A stretch of DNA of 64,000 nt from Gautieria morchelliformis (lineage: Eukaryota > Basidiomycota > Agaricomycetes > Gomphales > Gomphaceae). Both the position numbers and the translations under genes were made by a program. A model generated the notes under the pieces. It was not told the origin of the DNA. It searched no databases and saw only the letters and a list, made by a program, of their open reading frames with translations. Positions 15,975 through 36,000 of the stretch are shown in pieces (position 1 is the first letter of the stretch; every line of letters begins with the position of its first letter). The stretch covers positions 62,001 through 126,000 of the forward strand of contig WHVA01000220.1 in assembly GCA_015179125.1 (NCBI GenBank), read 5' to 3'.

Positions 15975-17251
15975 TGTCCCTGTGCTGCTCGTACAGCCTC
16001 CTGACACGGCATATGTTGCGATACGCCCATGCTCTTGGCTGCTCCTGGACAAACTCCACTTCTCAACAGCGTTGGCGCGAGGTGTGAAAAGCAATTTGTG
16101 GACTCAAACTTGAAGCATATCCCCGTCTCCACTGTGAGTAGATGTCAGCAACTATCTAGTGTGCGTGGAGAGGAGCAAGAATTAAAGCTAAAAATAAAAT
16201 AAAAAGGATGGCAGATGGTGAGAACAATCCAGAACAGAAATTCTGAACACTCCTCCACAGAGTGCACATATGAAAGGGGTTGCGCCGTACAGCATGTCAG
16301 GAGTGGCGCTATTACCGGCACATAGAAACGACAGAAGCAGCAGCACAAAAGGCCATTAATGGAAACAGCCAGCGCCAAATTCCAATTGACAACAGAAGCA
16401 CGACAGACAGAAGCGCCGTCGCGGCAAGTTACCAAGAGAAGGAAAGAAGCAGGAAGTGACTTACGATGTAGAGGAACCTGAAGCCAAGGACATGTGGACG
16501 CCATGCGCAGGGCAGAATTCACTGAGAAATTTTAGGCGCCTTAGCTGATTATCCCCATTTCGTGCTCCCACACTTGTGCTATCCACTCTGGTCGTGACCT
16601 CCGTCGGCTGCTGCCCTGCTCAGTGCGTCAAATCTAACGATCATCAGCATGCGCGTTCATAATATAATGCTCATTGTGCATATGCTTGCAGGAGAAAGAA
16701 GACATGTGTGCAGCGTTGAGTTTGATATTATTATTTATATAAATTTGCGATTGGAGGTGGAATTTACCTTGCAAATGAAATGAAACATACCGTGATTAGG
16801 ATTGGCATGGTGAACAGGAGAGAGTGGGTGGATTCAAATCATTATGACATGAAATACAGGGACAAATATGGATATGAATATTAACCCGACGCCGGGAGAG
16901 GCAGAGAGGATATTAAGATGACGAGCATGACCCCTCTTCCTCGAAGGAGCTAAATATATAGCACACGAAGAGGATGGACGGGCGGTTGCTGCGATGAGGG
17001 CGGTTAGTGGATGGAGAATGGGCCCAGCGGGCTGGGAATGACAAAGATGCCTCACAGACTGCGGGAAGATCGACCCCTGACTCTTGGCCTAGAACCAGGT
17101 GGGGGAATCGAGCTGGGTGCTTTCTGGGTCTACGAACTCGCTGCCTGCAATATCGTCGTACAGTTTAGTCAACGCTGCACATCGTGATGGCGAAGAAGAA
17201 AGATGCTCACCTATTTCGAGGGAAGGGTTCACCATGGGGCCTGGGGCAGCC
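15975..17251 (-). repeat. Rep1 copy L (dispersed repeat), first part
   Basis: This segment is the reverse complement of 28060-29270 (copy R) over about 1.2 kb, with shared landmarks such as CTATCTAGTGTGCGTGGAGAG, GGCGCCTTAG and GCCCAGCGGGCTGGGAATGA. It continues after a TIR insertion at 20861-20960. It holds a conserved non-canonical frame (16834-17055 minus) also open in copy R, but I see no known protein. It may be a TE terminal region or a segmental duplication. Confidence 0.7.
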
Positions 17252-21462: not shown

Positions 21463-21950
21463 TGTTAGCAACTAGGGGCTATGGCAGGGAAGGTTCGGTA
21501 GAGTTCTTAGAAAGCTAGAATAAAATATACTCTCTCAGTGAATTATTGTCACTGATGTATTAATACAATACCTAGAATCAAATATACTACATGATTTTTA
21601 GTCAACATGCTATGTAAATATGAAAGATACTACTCGCCTCTCTCAGTGAATTTATTGTCACTGAGAGAGGAGTACAATCCTGTCTCAGAAGGCATATACA
21701 TGCACCCGGCCCTTTAGCGCCCAAGGGCTTGCACGTCGAAGTCATTTCAAACTCCGCTGGGTGCAGCCGCCTGTGAAAATAGAAATAACAGAATGGAATG
21801 GAGAGATAGGGAGTGACTAGAAAATTTCAAAAATAAGCAGAGAAATGGATGCATGGTACAAGAACAATGTGAGAAACAATTGGAAACACCACACAATAAA
21901 TTGAACATATTATGCTTGATTTTGGTGCAGGAGCATAAATGCACCCAACA
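21463..21950 (-). repeat. 3' LTR of copia element A
   Basis: 488 bp. It contains a strong inverted repeat, CCTCTCTCAGTGA, 8-nt loop, TCACTGAGAGAGG, at about 21636-21669 that could form a hairpin in the transcript. Confidence 0.95.
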
Positions 21951-26220: not shown

Positions 26221-26709
26221 TGTTAGCAACTAGGGGCTATGGCAGGGAAGGTTCGGTAGAGTTCTTAGAAAGCTAGAATCAAATATACTCTCTCAGTGAA
26301 TTTATTGTCACTGATGTATTAATACAATACCTAGAATCAAATATACTACATGATTTTTAGTCAACATGCTATGTAAATATGAAAGATACTACTCGCCTCT
26401 CTCAGTGAATTTATTGTCACTGAGAGAGGAGTACAATCCTGTCTCAGAAGGCATATACGTGCACCCGGCCCTTTAGCGCCCAAGGGCTTGCGTGTCGAAG
26501 TCATTTCAAACTCCGCTGGGTGCAGCCGCCTGTGAAAATAGAAATAACAGAATGGAATGGAGAGATAGGGAGTGACTAGAAAATTTCAAAAATAAGCAGA
26601 GAAATGGATGCATGGTACAAGAACAATGTGAGAAACAATTGGAAACACCACACAATAAATTGAACATATTATGCTTGATTTTGGTGCAGGAGCATAAATG
26701 CACCCAACA
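26221..26709 (-). repeat. 5' LTR of copia element A
   Basis: 489 bp, differing from the 3' LTR by a 1-bp indel and a few substitutions. Confidence 0.95.
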
Positions 26710-27554: not shown

Positions 27555-29270
27555 TGCCTGTGTGTCACAGAAGGTCATTTCAGGTTCACTTCAATATACT
27601 GACCCTTACATAATTCACCAGCGCTTACTAACAGTTACATTGCCACGTATGATGAATCGCAACCGTATCGAGGGTAATGCGGCACCGCGCGCTGCCGGGA
27701 GCCGAGAATAGAACCAGGGTGCTGGATTCGAAGATCAGAGCAAGCGCGCGCTTCTTGGGTTGCAAGCTTCGCGGCTTCTGCTTCCTACGCTGATGCGTGC
27801 CGTGTGGCGTGTGGTCTGGGCGCTTGACGTGAATCGAGCCTAAATAGGTATAGCCTATCAATCCATTTGATCGCCGATCGATCACTTCGATCACTTCGAT
27901 CATGATCACGAGCTAATTGCGGTACACACATGTCACCCATGCTATGCTCCATATATAAGGTAGTCGAGCGGCATTCGTCTGCGCCCTACCCACCCGTCAC
28001 TCGACTAGTACTCATTCACACCTCACTCGTTAGTCGGTTCCTCCTTGCTACCGTGGCTGCCGCTGCCCCTACGGTGAACCCTTCCCCCGAAGAATGTGCG
28101 CGTCTTTCTTCTTCGCCATCACCGCTGTGTGCAGCGTTCACTAAACTGCCCGTGATGATGTTGCAGGCAGCGAGTTCGTAGACCCGGACAGTACCCAGCT
28201 CGATGCCCCCAGCTGACTCTAAGCCGAGAGTCGGGGGTCTATATTCTCGCAGTCTGTGAGTCATCTTTGTCATTCCCAGCCCGCTGTGCCCGTTCTACAT
28301 CCATTAACCGCCCTCCCCGCACCAACCGCCCGTCCATCCTCTTCGTGTACTATATATTTAGCTCCTTCAAGGAAGAGGGGCCGTGCTCGTCATCTTCATA
28401 TCCTCTCTGCCTCTCCCGGCGCCAGGTTCGTATTCATATCCGTATTCGTCCCCGTATTTCATATCATAATGATTTGAACCCACACCCTCTCTCTCCCGTT
28501 CACCATTTCACTCCTAATCACTTTCGGTTTCATTTCATTCGCAAGGTAAATTCCACCTCCAATCGCAAATTTATATAAATATCAAAGTCAACTCCGCACA
28601 CATGTCTCCTTTCTTCTGCGAGCATACGCACAATGAGCATTATATAATGAACTGGCAAGATTGTGATATTCAGATTCGACACACTAAGCAGGGCAGCCGC
28701 AGATAGCGCACGGGTGGGAGCACGAAACGCGGGATGATTAGCTAAGGCGCCTAAAATTTCTCGGTGAATTCTGCCCTGCGCATGGCGGCCACGTGTCCCG
28801 AGCCTCCTTCGGCTTCGGGGTCCTGGGTACATCTTACGTCACTTCCTCGTTCTCTTGGTAACTTGGCGCTGCGGCGCTTCTGTCCCTGTCAAACGGAATT
28901 TGGCGCTGGTTGCTTCCATTAATTGCCTTTTCTGTCGCTATGTGCCGGTAATAGCTCCGCTCCTGACATGCTTTACGGCGCAACCCCTTTCATGTGCGCA
29001 CTCTGTGGAGGAACGTTCTGACTTTCTGTTCTAGATTTTTCTCGCCGTTTGCAATCCTTTTTTATATTTAGTTTTACTTCTTGCTCCTCTCCATGCACAC
29101 TAGATAGTTACAGACACCTACTCACAGTGGAGACGAGGATGCGCTTCAAGTTCGAGTCCACAAATTGCTTTTCACGCCTAGCGCCGACTCCGTTGAGAAG
29201 TGGAGTTTGGCCAAGAGCACGGTCGCATCGCAACATATGTCGTGTCAGGAGGCTGTACGAGCAACACAGG
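27555..29270 (+). repeat. Rep1 copy R
   Basis: The 27995-29270 part is the inverted partner of copy L. The 27555-27930 part is the inverted partner of 35660-36000. It has promoter-like TATATATTTAGC (about 28350), followed by a frame (28256-28477) also open in copy L. It preserves the uninterrupted sequence for both the Pack-type insertion (about 28055) and the two-gene transposon (about 28840). Nature unknown. Confidence 0.7.
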
Positions 29271-29709: not shown

Positions 29710-29862
29710 CGGGTTTTCCGGATATACCAGCGCTTATAAACAGAAGCAGCCGAAAAGGCAATGAATGGAAGCACCCAGCGCCAAATTACGATTGACAACA
29801 GGGACAGAAGCGCCGCAGCGCCAAGTTAGCAAGAGAAGGGAACAAGCGAGGAATTGACTTAA
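29710..29862 (-). repeat. Rep1 copy M, left part
   Basis: Same orientation as copy L and matching 16330-16463 (CCAGCGCCAAATT, AAGCGCCGCAGCGCCAAG). It ends at the CTTAA target duplication of the transposon. Confidence 0.75.
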
Positions 29863-29888
29863 TACGGTGCGTGAGCACCGTCACCTCT
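29863..29888 (+). repeat. Left TIR of the two-gene transposon
   Basis: TACGGTGCGTGAGCACCG, then TCACCTCT. Pairs with 35562-35587. Confidence 0.85.
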
Positions 29889-29997
29889 AGATTGCACATC
29901 GGAGATTTTAGAATACAGAATTTATATACCTACAATCCACGTCTTGACCCTGTGCCCATGGGCGCTATAGTTACCGTTGTTATTGCTTCCGCCCATT

Positions 29998-31570
29998 ATG
30001 ACCACTAACCAGTATAATCGGAACCCTACAGGGAGGAACCAATACACGGAGTGTCGTGCGTGCACCATCCCCATACAACTATAATTGTACTAGTCTAAGT
30101 GAAAATCTACTGAAGCCGAGCCAAACGACGAGGTAATAAGCAATCACCTAATCGAATATCACCGTCGCGGCATCACAAGTGGAAAACAAATGAGCAGATT
30201 ACTTTGGGTCGAGCACCAGGTGAAAATAAGGTAAATAAACACTTTCTTCCTTTGAATAGCAACTCAGGACAATCAGTGGAACGACTGTAGATCGTCGGCA
30301 TGCAGTATTAGGACTCACTGCTTCCGGTGCAACAACTCGTGCTCTCCCAGAGACTGTAAAGCGGCAACTTGTTTTAGATCAAATGGCAAAGGATCCTACG
30401 CAGCGACGTGGGCCCAAACTTATCGTGGAGGCCATTGCTAGGAAGACTGGGAACCATTTAACTCAGTAAGTCAAATAGGTAGCTGTTTCGGTCTTGACTT
30501 ACGTTGACCGTTCAAGGGAGTATGTTAGGGATGAGATGCGGATCCAAGATCCACTAGGGTTTGAGCTTCGTGAACCTACCGCTAAGAAAATATCCCGGCA
30601 AGCGTTAGTTGTCCTTGGACCACATCATGAGTGGAGCGGGGACGGTCATGACAAACTATCAAAGATCGGGTTTCCGGTTTGGGCCCTTCGAGACGTGTGG
30701 TCAGGTAAATGGTTGGGAATCTGGGTGGTTCCCAATAATCGGTTGAAGCATGCCATCGCATATCTATATTTATCGTTGGTTGAAAGCCTCGGTGGTTCGT
30801 GACTTGTGAGACAGCGTAAACTTTGATATATTGCTTATTGGATATTAGGTATGCCAATTCAAACCACCACAGACTGTGGCAGCGAAACTATCACAGTTTT
30901 TGGCCTTGCACATGCAATGCGGTAGGTATTTATGACATGTTTTGTTGTGACCAACATATAAGTCTACTGATTTTTTAGGGAACATTTTTCACCGCAACTC
31001 TCTACTGATGAACTACCGGCACACAAGTTCCTTAAGTCTGTTCATAATACGACAATTGAACGGGGCTGGCTTCAGCTTCGGTTACAGTGGGGTGACAACA
31101 TAAAAATATTTTGGGAGGCTGGTGATGGTATATACAATCCCTCAAATCCATACCACTAGTTCGTCATCAATTATTCTATCTCTTAATTGGTGTACTAATA
31201 TGTTTCAAGTGAACTCGTCCAATGGCTGTCGCCTACAATGATTCAAAAGGAATTAGATGAGCTTCGAGATCGGTTCAACAATCATGTTGTGCGAAAGGTC
31301 AATGGGAAAGTTTTACCATCAGGTGTTTCCCCTAACATTGCATATGCATTACCTGACCAATACGGCGGTGAGAATCATCTTCAGCCCATTGACAAACTAG
31401 CGGCACAAGGGTTGATGGAAGCTATCGGTGGTAAGGAACTTATTCAGTTTGTGAGCAAAGAGTATGCTTCACGTGCAGCTGAGGTTTTTCATTCACTGGG
31501 TATTGAGAGACTCACGATGCAAAATGTATGGGTTATCTTCAAGGATATGTTGCCGCTGATGCATCCCTAA
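29998..31570 (+). CDS. DDE integrase-type transposase with several introns
   Basis: The coding pieces read through short introns: a helix-rich N-terminal part (about 30115-30470, including HLIEYHRRGITSGKQ and RQLVLDQMAKDPTQRRGP), then EYVRDEMRIQDPLGFELR, the catalytic core and the C-terminal half ending at 31570. The core has HHEWSGDGHDKL (first Asp at 30641), TTDCGSET (second Asp at 30872) and TTIERGW (Glu at 31058), the D-D-E pattern of retroviral-type integrases. Further conserved blocks are SGKWLGIWVVPNNRL and RDRFNNHVVRK. Introns: 30464-30522 (GTAAGT), after LGG (~30791), 30931-30978 and ~31157-31209. The ATG at 29998 is the first plausible one, but the exon 1/2 junction is unresolved. 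No stop breaks the core, so it may be functional. Confidence 0.8.
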
Positions 31571-31692
31571 TTCAAAAAAGAATTATTTTTTGCCATTCAG
31601 AATGAAGACAGAATGAACATTTAAATCTTCAACAATGGATGATTAAAGGAACCATAGTAAACTAGCGATGAAGAAACTATGCCATGGTAATT

Positions 31693-34600
31693 TTAAAGCT
31701 CCCACTGTCGGTGAAGATTCCGAGGCTTTATAGTCGGTAACACCTCCATTTGAGGGACAGCTATATCATTAAGTGGTGCCGGTACAACAACAACCTCTGT
31801 ATTGAGGCCCAACTTGCGACAGATTTTGTTGCATTTATGTTCCTTGAGAAACTGCAGAATTCCTGACCAGCCTTTGTCCCAGAAGCCCGATGAACCATCA
31901 AATCTAGTATAACAAATCAATAGTTTGCTGCAATGGAGAATAGCAACCTACGTGTGCGCTTGCCGGTCAAAAAGAACAACCCGGTTCTCTGAGTAAACAA
32001 AGCCTAACGATATGTTAAACATCATTCTGTGTTTATACCACGTGCACTTACCTTGAATGTCTACAAATACATACTCTCCCATGCTGTCAACAACTGTATG
32101 ATGGGCAAATGCGTCGATCCAGATCCCAAGATAATCACTATTTTCGCCGGTGTCTCCATTACCTGAAAATTTACATTCGGTGGCCCCAGGTTCAAGTAAC
32201 GGTACAGCCAGAAATACGTTCCATATTAGACTCTGGTTTGAGCGTTGCTCCGCAGGGAGATCAGGCAGTTTATCAACCAGCGTACCCAGGAATGCACCGT
32301 CAGCATTCCACTTCATCTCTTCAGATAGACATCAAGTACTGCTACAAGTAAAACAGATACACGTACCTGGAATATTTTTGGCACCATACTGCTGTGCACG
32401 TCGTATGAATGAGTCAAGGAAAAACTTTCCCCGTGCTAATAGCTTGAGTTCACATTTGAGGTCGTACTTATTCAGATATTCGGTATCGCTGTTCAAATTT
32501 TTCGACTGAAGTACAGCAAAACTGTCGCTCGCAACACGCCCCTGTGTGACAGTTAAAATAGAATAGGACATTGGTAGAGTGCTCACCATAAATGCAAATT
32601 TCGCATAGCCATATCCAAGGTATCCTTCTTCTCTCTTACCTGTATTGACGTATTTTCGCCAGTTCTTGGGAATCAAAATTGTTTTAATATCTATGCTGTC
32701 TTCCTTTTCCGTGACCTCCCCTTCCACATTGACAAGATAGGTTTCATGATAAAATGGGTACGTGTCGTATTCAATCTTGGGTGCACTAGCATTCCCACGA
32801 CCTGTACCTGATCGGCGCCGATATGCACTCACGTAGTGTTTTGCTGATGGGAGGGGTTCCTCTACTAGAATTAGTATAATACTATGTCTAAACTAAGAAC
32901 ATTTACCATGTGATATAAATGAAAGCTTGCGTTTGGATGAACGAGCCACTGAGCGCATGTGGAACGGTGGTATAGGCCTTGAGTCACATTCAATATCTTC
33001 ATCGGTCTTCAAAGTTTCAGCATCACTAGCCAAGAAAATATACATAAATATCACCTACAGTATCAGATTTTACTTCATAGAGACGCAGCTGCATCGTGAT
33101 ACATTTACCCTTGATGTCCTTGTCCGATAGCAAGCTGTCCTTCTCCAGCTTTTCATGCAGGGCTTGAACGGTGCAAAAAAGGTTAGGCTCGTCAATATCT
33201 AAGTAACTGCTCTCATGAACAGTCTTCGCAACTGCAAAAACCACTTTGTCTCTAGAAATGTACACACAGCGATTCAGTATTAGATAACACATGAATTGGT
33301 AGACAAATTTACCTCAAAAAGAACGGTTTTGGTGTGGGTTTATCAGCAATCGCAGCCTTATCATACACCTTTTCAGCATGTTTGAGAAGCCGATCTATCA
33401 TTTCAGTGGCAAGTGTTGTGGCAGTGAAACCTTCGACTACTGCTGGTATTTGAATCTTACCGTGATTGTGAGCAACTTACACAAAAATTCAGCACAAAAT
33501 AACCTACTTGACGAGGCTTACAACCTCCCTTCGACCTTACAGCCGGATAATACCAAATCGTTAGCTTAATGCCGATGGAGTCCATCTTGCTAAGGTTCCT
33601 CAAGGCTTGAGTTTTCTTCAGGATCTCACTACCTTTCTTGAGGCTTGGGTTCTGTGATCGTCTATTTAGACGATGGTCAGATGCAGAGCCCTCGTGCTCG
33701 GCAGTTCGCTTGAGAATATGGTTCATCACATCATCGCAGTGTTACGTATCGAGATTTCCACTAAGTCGGAACTGGAAAGGACAGCGGCTTCAACTTATAG
33801 GTTGCGCCCCCAATGAACTATCGTCCTAGGTATTTCGGAAATGAGCCGGAAGTCGGAAAGTACTGGACCAGAGGTTTGGTCGGAACTTGAGTCGGAACTG
33901 AGGCGGAAGGCGGAAGACGGAAGGCTGAGAGAGAGACTGAGATCTTGCTAGACTCGCTGTGCTAAGAACAGGAGATGGAGCGAAGGAAATCAAGTATCGA
34001 AGGTGATTATCTGATTACAGAATAACAGACATACATGAGGGGGTTTTATACAAAGCGCAGAGCAACAAGTAATGGTGTTGTACTAAGCAAATTCCGGAGG
34101 AAGCGGAAGTCGAGTACAATGTGTGGGAACTAACTAATTGGAACAATGGGACTACAAGGGGGGTTCAGGGTAAGGTAGAACAATGGCAAAGAACAAGGGG
34201 TCGGGAAAACATATCTGACAACGAACTACAAGGGTGACCGGATATATGGTTTTGATGAATGGCGAGGTAGATCCGGTGGGTCCGAGTAATAGAGTCGAAA
34301 GAACAAGGGAAATGTACAGGGGGCGGAATGGCGGAAATGTCGGAGGGGCGGAACGTGTGGCGGAACTATTGGAGAGGCGGAATGTATGGCGGAACTGAGG
34401 GTCGGAAGTCGGAAATGAACGGTCGTAACACGCAGCCTATGCAATATTGTGAGAAGAGGTTTAACAGTGATAGAGAATGACTCACCGCTGAAAAGTTGTG
34501 GCTCTATGGCGCAGTCAGTTGCAGATTCAGCCAGTAATACGCTGGACTTACCCTTTTCGGCATCTTCATTGCATTTACCGCATAACTTGGATTTCAGGAA

Positions 34601-34808
34601 TGGATAAACCACCCCGCACCCGAGGCACTGAGGAAGAACCTGTATGGATATGAGTAAAAGTAAAGATGATTCCAACATGATTACATACTTCAATTGCTTT
34701 GCGTTCGGTTTCAGACATTGCGGCCAGCAGTTTGTCACACTTCGCACATTGAAGTAGAATCAAGTCGAGGTGAGGGAACCTATTGGAACAACCTTGACAG
34801 TGAGTCAT
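31693..34808 (-). pseudogene. Alpha-type (MHCK/EF2K-like) protein kinase gene, disrupted by a solo LTR
   Basis: The start is the ATG at 34808. Exon 1 and 2 encode CxxC pairs (CQGCSNRF, CAKCDKLL, CLGCGVVYPFL, CGKCNED), probably a zinc-binding N-terminus. Later exons carry the kinase: YHETYLVNVEGEV, GKREEGYLGYGYAKFAFM, KCELKLLARGKFF, then AFAHHTVVDSMGEYVFVDIQG (metal-binding/catalytic block) and the C-terminal zinc motif GFWDKGWSG with EHKCNKICRKL. Alpha-kinases phosphorylate Ser/Thr and are expanded in Agaricomycetes. A 691-bp solo LTR with TSD CGCAG sits 6 bases inside the exon that follows PQLFSG, breaking the frame. Other introns have normal GT-AG borders, so the break is recent relative to the gene. 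It is cargo of the CTTAA-flanked transposon. Confidence 0.88.
33740..34430. mobile_element. Solo LTR (family 2) in an alpha-kinase exon, TSD CGCAG
   Basis: 691 bp, TGTTACGTATC..GTCGTAACA, flanked by CGCAG at 33735-33739 and 34431-34435. Homologous to 2844-3523 but with expanded GGCGGAA/GTCGGAA repeats. Confidence 0.93.
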
Positions 34809-34835
34809 TGCAGAACAACGAAAAGAAAAACACAC

Positions 34836-35561
34836 TCATACCAGTTTTATACCACGTAGCATAACTACGATCTGCCCAAGAGATGAGAGAAAATTCTAAG
34901 TGAGCCAATGCTCAGCACAATACATGCATTAGTGAGACTCACCGTCAATATATATACAGTTAAAACTTCATCGTTACCGCTAATAGTGTATTAAAACTTC
35001 GTTGTTGCCACTAACAGTGTATAACGGCTGAAACAACCAGTGCACTTCAGCTCAAACAAATTTATGTGAAAGAAAGAAAGATTACCGGGCCCATCGGGTT
35101 AAGCAGGAGGCTAGTCTAGACACAGAGTCTCCGTTGTATCAAATACAACACCGCTCCATTCCCTAAAATTTTACGACCATACTTGTATTCGCTGTTTCCC
35201 CCGTGATACGAGTTAACGTCAGCTCAAGTTCACTGTGATGGATCGCTCACACCGTACTTACAAAGAATTGGCCAAGTTCAACACATCGGCGTTTGATTAC
35301 CGGCCATTGTCAATAGCGGGATGTCTTCCAGTCTTTCAGCTTGCTGTAACAGTTAGGCGTTAGTTTTAATGAAACCATGAGAGTCATGGACATGGAGTCG
35401 ACGACAGTGCGGTCGACGACGGTCAGGAGTAGACTCGCCGTTTCCTTCGGACTTTGTGTCACGTGATGTGCTGAGTTAGGTTCTTTGGGCGCTTAAATAC
35501 ATGTGGATCACGAAACATGAATATTGGATCTTGACAATTGAAATCCTGCCCCTTGAATTTC
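34836..35561. other. Right subterminal region of the two-gene transposon
   Basis: No gene. A ~35-bp tandem duplication (TTAAAACTTCRTCGTTRCC, then CTAAYAGTGTATAA) lies at 34968-35035. A TIR-like motif GCTCACACCGTACTTA occurs at about 35246-35261, which may be a subterminal transposase-binding site or an older end. Confidence 0.5.
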
Positions 35562-35587
35562 AGAGGTGACGACGCTCACGCACCGTA
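35562..35587 (-). repeat. Right TIR of the two-gene transposon
   Basis: Reverse complement reads TACGGTGCGTGAGCGTCG, then TCACCTCT. Confidence 0.85.
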
Positions 35588-36000
35588 CTTAAGATGTAGC
35601 CAGGAACCCGAAGCCGAAGGAACAGATCAGGGTCGGGACACGTGGCCGCCAGCGGAGGACGCCGATGGGGATCGAAGTGATCGCTCGGTGATCAATCGGG
35701 CATCAAACGTATTGATCTATACCCATATAGGCTCGAGTCACGTCGAGCGCGCCGGTAGGCCACGCCACAAGGCACGCATCAGCGTAGGAAGCAGAAGGCC
35801 CGAAGCTTGCAACCCGATCAACACATCCCGCGAAGCGCGCGCTTGTTGCGATCTTCGAATCCAACCCTGTTTCTATTCTTGGCTCCCGGCAGCGCGCGGT
35901 GCCGCAGTACTCTCGATTCGCTTGCCACTCATCACACATGGCGGTGTAACGGTTAGTACGCACCGGCAAATTATGTAAGGGTCGATTTATTGAAGTGAAC
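35588..36000 (-). repeat. Rep1 copy M, right part (internally deleted)
   Basis: Continues copy M from GATGTAGCCAGG through CACGTGGCCGCC. It then jumps to sequence that is the reverse complement of 27555-27930, so relative to copy R about 850 bp is missing. Confidence 0.7.

Follow-up and report, generated by a model that had tools for sequence, protein, structure and literature searches.

Why should an alpha-kinase gene lie between the inverted ends of a DNA transposon, tail to tail with the gene for its transposase? The question is raised by a 64,000-nucleotide stretch of the fungus Gautieria morchelliformis (GCA_015179125.1, contig WHVA01000220.1, positions 62,001 to 126,000; hereafter the window), in which an element bounded by terminal inverted repeats (TIRs) carries an integrase-type transposase gene with a D-D-E motif and, convergent to it, an alpha-kinase gene. 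Our answer, which we hold to be very probable, is that the window contains one copy of an IS3EU-like family whose autonomous form encodes a DDE transposase and an alpha-kinase tail to tail, that the kinase is an accessory of transposition, and that the spread of such elements made most of the alpha-kinases of this genome.

To delimit the element, we compared its ends with each other and its flanks with the rest of the window. The left end reads TACGGTGCGTGAGC-AC-CGTCACCTCT from 29863, and the right end, on the opposite strand, reads the same with GT at positions 15-16, giving 24 of 26 matching positions with both mismatches adjacent. Directly outside both ends lies the 5-bp target-site duplication (TSD) CTTAA. 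When joined, the flanks matched a host repeat at 28932-28775 (82% over 178 bp) and again at 16331-16490 (80% over 164 bp); both matches span the junction, and the empty sites are therefore real. The inverted ends, the duplications, and the unoccupied repeat copies near 16460 and 28840 had all been claimed in a preliminary description of this DNA, and all were borne out. With inverted ends, TSDs, empty sites, and multiple copies at independent sites, the element is a class II TIR transposon.

We then searched all 1113 contigs of the genome (122 Mb) for the 26-bp end pattern, allowing up to 3 mismatches, and paired two-ended copies by coordinates. The pattern occurred at 34 places, compared with 0 for a reversed control pattern. 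We found 10 two-ended copies of this family, family A (on contigs C211, C230, C250, which is the window copy, C311, C327, C332, C470, C508, C565, and C637), and 14 one-ended places. Exact 5-bp TSDs flank seven of the two-ended copies (CTTAA, CAAAT, CCCGG, CGCGT, CCTGG, CGCAG, and AATGC), a 4-bp TSD flanks one (C211), and two have none (C470 and C508). By tblastn, all 10 carry the integrase and the kinase in convergent orientation, so that transposase and kinase are enclosed by one pair of ends in every two-ended family-A copy. This rules out a single gene captured in one copy; a kinase held at one syntenic place without TIRs is ruled out by copies on many contigs with different TSDs. Seven copies (six two-ended and a second, one-ended copy on C332) align at 97.0-98.3% identity, indicating that the spread of family A was recent. 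Both genes are also present in two one-ended places (the second C332 copy and C14), and the kinase with a piece of the integrase in two more (C105 and C280). At C521 and C250b only about 500 bp are left, including the integrase start, and at C2, C178, C183, C270, C326 (two places), C397, and C1003 the match is limited to 58-421 bp at the end of the element. At TIR positions 15-16, AC was found at the integrase-side end in 8 of the 10 two-ended copies and GT at the kinase-side end in 9, an asymmetry between the two TIRs that recurs from copy to copy. The C332 locus (L013, 220-9298) holds two inverted element copies with mostly identical protein match values and looks like an inverted duplication.

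The preliminary description had asked whether an alpha-kinase lies opposite the integrase in independent copies; it does so throughout the two-ended copies of family A, and the convergent layout is repeated in five more divergent families, B to F. The family-B end, TACGGTGCACGAGCGTCCTCAGGTCT, was found at 36 places and the family-C end, TACGGTGCCCGAGCAGTRCCAGGTCT, at 28, with 0 places for either reversed control. TACGGTG is common to both ends of families B and C, and one TACGGTG end was seen in each of families E and F; there was none in the two stretches of family D examined (L040 and L041). The family-D integrase is 28-32% identical over the tblastn stretches, and its pair is again convergent. 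By coordinates, both genes are present in 10 of 10 two-ended copies of family A, 4 of 10 of family B, and 3 of 3 of family C, and not one of these 23 copies holds one gene alone. Four copies outside family A were examined for TSDs, which were 6 bp long in two (TGCGTG on C487, CTGGAC on C366), 5 bp in one (GGGAT at C278a), and absent in one (C365). The copy on C366 (L039, 2686-7513) is a 4,828-bp family-C element with both genes that lies inside a family-D copy, and the family-D copy on C622 is the empty site for this insertion, matching at 57 of 60 bases. This nested element shows directly that the two genes transpose together.

To survey the pairing across the genome, we listed 75 kinase loci (46 by Pfam profile and 29 more by the window kinase) and 82 integrase loci, gathered with the window integrase and one distant integrase as queries; locus types were assigned by hand, and the counts are of listed places, not independent events. 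Within 15 kb of an integrase of the window type, 53 of the 75 kinase loci were convergent to it, 2 divergent, and 1 on the same strand; 51 of the 53 convergent loci lay within 3.25 kb of the integrase, with a median distance of 545 bp. Among the 46 Pfam-profile loci, 30 were convergent, 2 divergent, 1 on the same strand, and 13 without integrase. Conversely, 56 of the 82 listed integrase loci have a kinase within 15 kb. For other PF24764 integrase lineages, a kinase was found within 15 kb at 0 of 63 listed loci (150 of 565 candidates scored), and none was seen at three loci with strong PF24764 integrases read as open frames. The proposal that pairing with a transposase explains the expansion of alpha-kinases in Agaricomycetes holds within the genome covered here, that of G. 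morchelliformis, most of whose alpha-kinases would stem from the spread of elements rather than from duplication of a host signalling gene. The three non-convergent neighbour pairs (C194:133354-137468, C559:119499-122721, and C147:33625-35823) could possibly be other element types. At C149:42500-46800 (L045), an alpha-kinase gene has no integrase in the 4.3 kb read; it could belong to the host or be a stranded copy.

The D-D-E residues of the window integrase sit in GDGHDK, TTDCGSE, and NTTIERGW, and the five coding stretches checked have 0 stops in 354 codons. PF24764 (Integrase core domain) matched this protein with an E value of 2.6 × 10−4, under the Pfam cut-off, which its relatives P0007 and P0012 exceed. 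There were 260 homologous proteins at E ≤ 1 × 10−3, and the named ones among the best 120 belong to genera that we take to be all Agaricomycetes, Gautieria included. The coding ends of the two convergent genes are about 120 bp apart.

For the window kinase, one coding stretch matches PF02816 above the cut-off and the next one below it. The annotated kinase of the C508 copy (P0001, 618 aa) reaches 51 bits where the cut-off is 21.3, and this score and its key residues place it in the alpha-kinase family. Against MHCK A and other alpha-kinases of known structure, P0001 can be aligned by sequence only in the C-lobe (about residues 491-600). Eight residues (K492, G495, H515, D529, Q531, G532, H571, and C573) show no variation among P0006 and six element kinases, and several of them fall within the stretch aligned to MHCK A; in the alignments, the residues kept match positions that serve catalysis or zinc binding in known alpha-kinases. 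The last cysteine of the alpha-kinase key residues is a serine in P0001 and a cysteine in the window copy and most others, and the window kinase has DRQ at the position of DPQ in other copies. Like the element kinases, MHCK A (3lkm, 4kuj), eEF2K, and TRPM7 have C-lobe DIQG, DPQ, and H-x-C-N motifs; the element kinases differ from them in their added N-terminal CxxC motifs and their transposase neighbour. The N-terminal module, QCxGCGxVYP..CGxC, is common to the kinases of families A, B, C, and E. A related CxxC stretch stands at the N-terminus of the family-F kinase, and related stretches occur in one Ramaria and one Punctularia homologue; the module was not found in the pieces of the family-D kinase that were read. 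A KRK(L/V)S motif is present in the kinases of families A and B (P0001 and P0127) and in the Ramaria homologue. Kinase homologues outside Gautieria were few in a word search (1 of 6 and 3 of 12 matches without the Gautieria name), and IMG/VR scans with both proteins gave no confirmed relative of either.

To gauge the age of the partnership, we compared the proportions of synonymous (pS) and nonsynonymous (pN) differences. Between families A and B, pS is 0.75 and pN 0.15 for the integrase, and 0.81 and 0.28 for the kinase (573 codons). Across families, pS ranges from 0.66 to 0.88, which is saturated or nearly so, and pN from 0.28 to 0.46 for the kinase and from 0.15 to 0.47 for the integrase; the order and orientation of the pair are kept across several families with saturated synonymous sites. 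The ratio of nonsynonymous to synonymous substitution rates (dN/dS) is 0.37 for the integrase and 0.30 for the kinase between the close family-B copies C365 and C487, and 0.58 and 0.52, on few changes, between C278 and C366. Trees of nine integrase/kinase pairs agree in splits with 100% support, which hold the family-B copies together and separate A with B from C, E, F, and D. They disagree on the order within B, on that within C, E, and F, and on the place of D; the best-supported conflict (66% in one tree, 98% in the other) lies within B, and the stitched C487 integrase in this part contains a misread stretch. Judged from these comparisons, the kinase has long belonged to the transposon and has been under selection there.

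All this is consistent with an ordinary cut-and-paste element of the DDE type that has a second protein under selection. The zinc-ribbon-like module and the KRK(L/V)S motif suggest nuclear action and contact with DNA or protein. We propose, as the most likely route, that the kinase would act in the nucleus, where its N-terminal module would tether it to element DNA, the transposase, or chromatin, and that insertion would succeed through its phosphorylation of the transposase, of host factors for chromatin, silencing, or repair, or of both; these are our best guesses for its targets.

Three other explanations were weighed against a working accessory. The kinase could be cargo, a host alpha-kinase captured long ago that rides along and serves the host or nothing. 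Alpha-kinases without a nearby integrase do exist, as on C149, and the kinase protein changes faster than the integrase. Cargo would, however, be lost or swapped between families, yet the two trees share their fully supported splits, no two-ended copy of A, B, or C with only one of the genes was found, and an N-terminal CxxC module recurs in the kinases of families A, B, C, E, and F and in the Ramaria and Punctularia homologues. That the partners stay together and show no sign of exchange speaks against cargo, which we regard as unlikely. The protein might instead be mainly a DNA-binding second transposition protein that works through its zinc ribbon, its kinase activity being secondary or lost; DNA-binding helpers are known from other transposons, such as the Nuwa families, which encode a Myb/SANT protein (PMC12730594), and the CxxC motifs are conserved. 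The key alpha-kinase residues, on the other hand, are invariant although the kinases are only 23-55% identical to P0001, and their retention suggests that kinase activity matters; we give this alternative a similarly low chance. That kinase and integrase are merely abundant neighbours, by chance or through an effect of the region, is very improbable; in its favour are the many loci of both families in this genome. It is refuted by the pair in all 10 two-ended family-A copies, by the convergence of 53 of the 56 neighbouring pairs (out of 75 kinase loci), by the lack of a kinase within 15 kb of any of the 63 listed loci of other integrase lineages, and by the common ends, often with TSDs, that bracket the pair.

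We return to the kinase as a transposition accessory, against which a number of observations weigh. Six of the 10 two-ended family-B copies show neither gene in protein searches: five of 2.2-3.1 kb (C125:168644-170841, C145:74757-76939, C162:120970-123142, C781:344895-347071, and C240:139624-142763) and one of 5.0 kb (C892:79978-84985). From their coordinates and the protein searches, the five short copies are probably non-autonomous derivatives. Among one-ended family-C places, three have a kinase without an integrase match (C42:8603-10560, C43:8513-10480, and C47:257525-259491) and one an integrase without a kinase match (C525:41859-42872). The preliminary description had named copies lacking the kinase as evidence against a partnership; this was seen in none of the two-ended family-A copies, but 10 of the 14 one-ended places are end pieces without kinase, in which the integrase too is gone or only its start is left. 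Within family A, pN/pS is 0.64 for the kinase and 0.78 for the integrase, and several copies have stops or frameshifts, as expected of decaying copies. In the genome-wide lists, 19 of the 75 kinase loci have no integrase of the window type within 15 kb and 3 are not convergent, and no kinase lies within 15 kb of 26 of the 82 integrase loci, a group that includes fragments and weak matches. The 29 loci found with the window's own kinase bias the list toward element kinases, and possible assembly duplicates among contig pairs (such as C105/C280, C365/C860, and C42/C43) make the loci not independent. Finally, it is the constancy of the pairing alone that separates an accessory from cargo.

The features of the window copy are given in Table 1. 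The preliminary description had only an integrase and a kinase gene between the ends; both are there, together with a 691-bp insertion resembling a long terminal repeat (LTR). It sits just inside a kinase coding stretch and is absent from the 6 other aligned family-A copies. Because it splits the gene, the kinase of the window copy is probably broken. Elsewhere in the window, direct repeats of about 380 bp (21463-21842 and 26221-26601), 99% identical, 4.76 kb apart, and starting with TGTTAGC, look like the LTRs of a young retrotransposon.

Table 1. Features of the transposon copy and its surroundings in the window (contig C250)
Feature	Position	Strand	Basis
TIR DNA transposon copy	29863-35587		ends and flanking TSD
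Target-site duplication CTTAA, left	29858..29862	.	directly outside element end
Left TIR, integrase side, 26 bp	29863..29888	+	end comparison and genome search
Right TIR, kinase side, 26 bp	35562..35587	-	end comparison and genome search
Target-site duplication CTTAA, right	35588..35592	.	directly outside element end
DDE integrase-type transposase gene, at least 7 coding stretches	30013..31567	+	homology, D-D-E motifs, PF24764 in relatives
Integrase coding stretches 1-2	~30013-30062, ~30120-30228	+	homology to P0007/P0012, approximate borders
Integrase coding stretches 3-7	30281-30463, 30518-30793, 30848-30919, 30977-31150, 31211-31567	+	
Alpha-kinase gene, N-terminal zinc-ribbon-like CxxC motifs	31696..34808	-	PF02816, homology; splice borders approximate
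Kinase coding stretches 1-6	34808-34689, 34639-34553, ~34504-34484, 33735-33532, 33458-33312, 33250-33110	-	
Kinase coding stretches 7-12	33006-32908, 32862-32587, 32541-32368, 32319-32053, 32004-31951, 31902-31696	-	
LTR-like insertion, 691 bp, TGTTACG..CGTAACA, TSD CGCAG	33740..34430	.	copy alignment
Host repeat copy, site unoccupied	28775..28932	-	flank-junction match
Second host repeat copy, site unoccupied	16331..16490	+	flank-junction match

Elements of this kind have been described in other fungi. Kojima 2025 (PMC12730594) assigns to IS3EU those fungal elements that end in TAYGG..CCRTA and have 6-bp TSDs; one passage of that paper states that all TET+ IS3EU families hold a TET/JBP gene between oppositely oriented transposase and alpha-kinase genes. 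The kinase partnership is thus already in print for TET+ IS3EU of rusts (Pucciniales) and of Tuber (Tuber indicum), and it is on this paper that the pairing in other species rests. The window family likewise has a transposase opposite an alpha-kinase in one element, and its termini (TACGG..CCGTA at both ends in families A, B, and C, none seen for D) agree with those given there for Pucciniales. It differs from the elements in that passage in its host class, Agaricomycetes, in the roughly 120 bp without a third gene between the pair where these have TET/JBP, and, in family A, in a 5-bp TSD and a 26-bp TIR in place of 6-bp TSDs and TIRs of more than 30 bp; among the copies of the sister families B and C examined, two of four have the 6-bp TSD of Pucciniales IS3EU. 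The PF12851 (Tet_JBP) profile had no match in the Gautieria genome, in a search that gave no positive-control match either. IS3EU/GingerRoot, as characterized in PMC10045372, has TA..TA termini, an integrase-kind DDE transposase, and usually a 6-bp TSD; the window family shares its ends and transposase type, with 5 bp in family A instead, and the word kinase is absent from the available text of that paper. Styx of Zymoseptoria tritici, with a 6-bp TSD and a 36-bp TIR, is described (PMC10853768) as of IS3EU origin, from an ancestor that encoded two proteins; no alpha-kinase is named as a part of it in the description available there. Because the ends fit but the TSD length of family A differs and no TET gene lies between the genes, we call the window family an IS3EU-like variant; the features seen in its transposase are PF24764 and the DDE motifs. 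In our literature search, with subscription papers and Repbase Reports mostly outside it, Kojima 2025 alone was found to join an alpha-kinase and a transposon. New here are the Agaricomycete two-gene form, the family with a 5-bp TSD, the counts, the evidence on selection, and the account of this genome's kinase expansion.

Alpha-kinases are described as highly expanded in rust fungi (PMC4469406), an expansion that looks like host signalling. In this genome, 65-71% of the listed kinase loci (30 of 46 or 53 of 75) are convergent to a transposase of the window type, and such gene-family counts may therefore largely measure transposon load. Tentatively, we suggest that a whole clade of fungal DNA transposons may be controlled by its own alpha-kinase as an obligate second function, with a phosphorylation signal supplied by the element and directed at transposase, chromatin, or repair and silencing factors, and that most alpha-kinases of mushrooms and rusts may be transposon proteins rather than signalling enzymes of the host. 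A protein kinase encoded by the element and maintained by selection would add an unusual level of control to cut-and-paste transposition, and the two-gene form described here makes kinase control of transposition testable.

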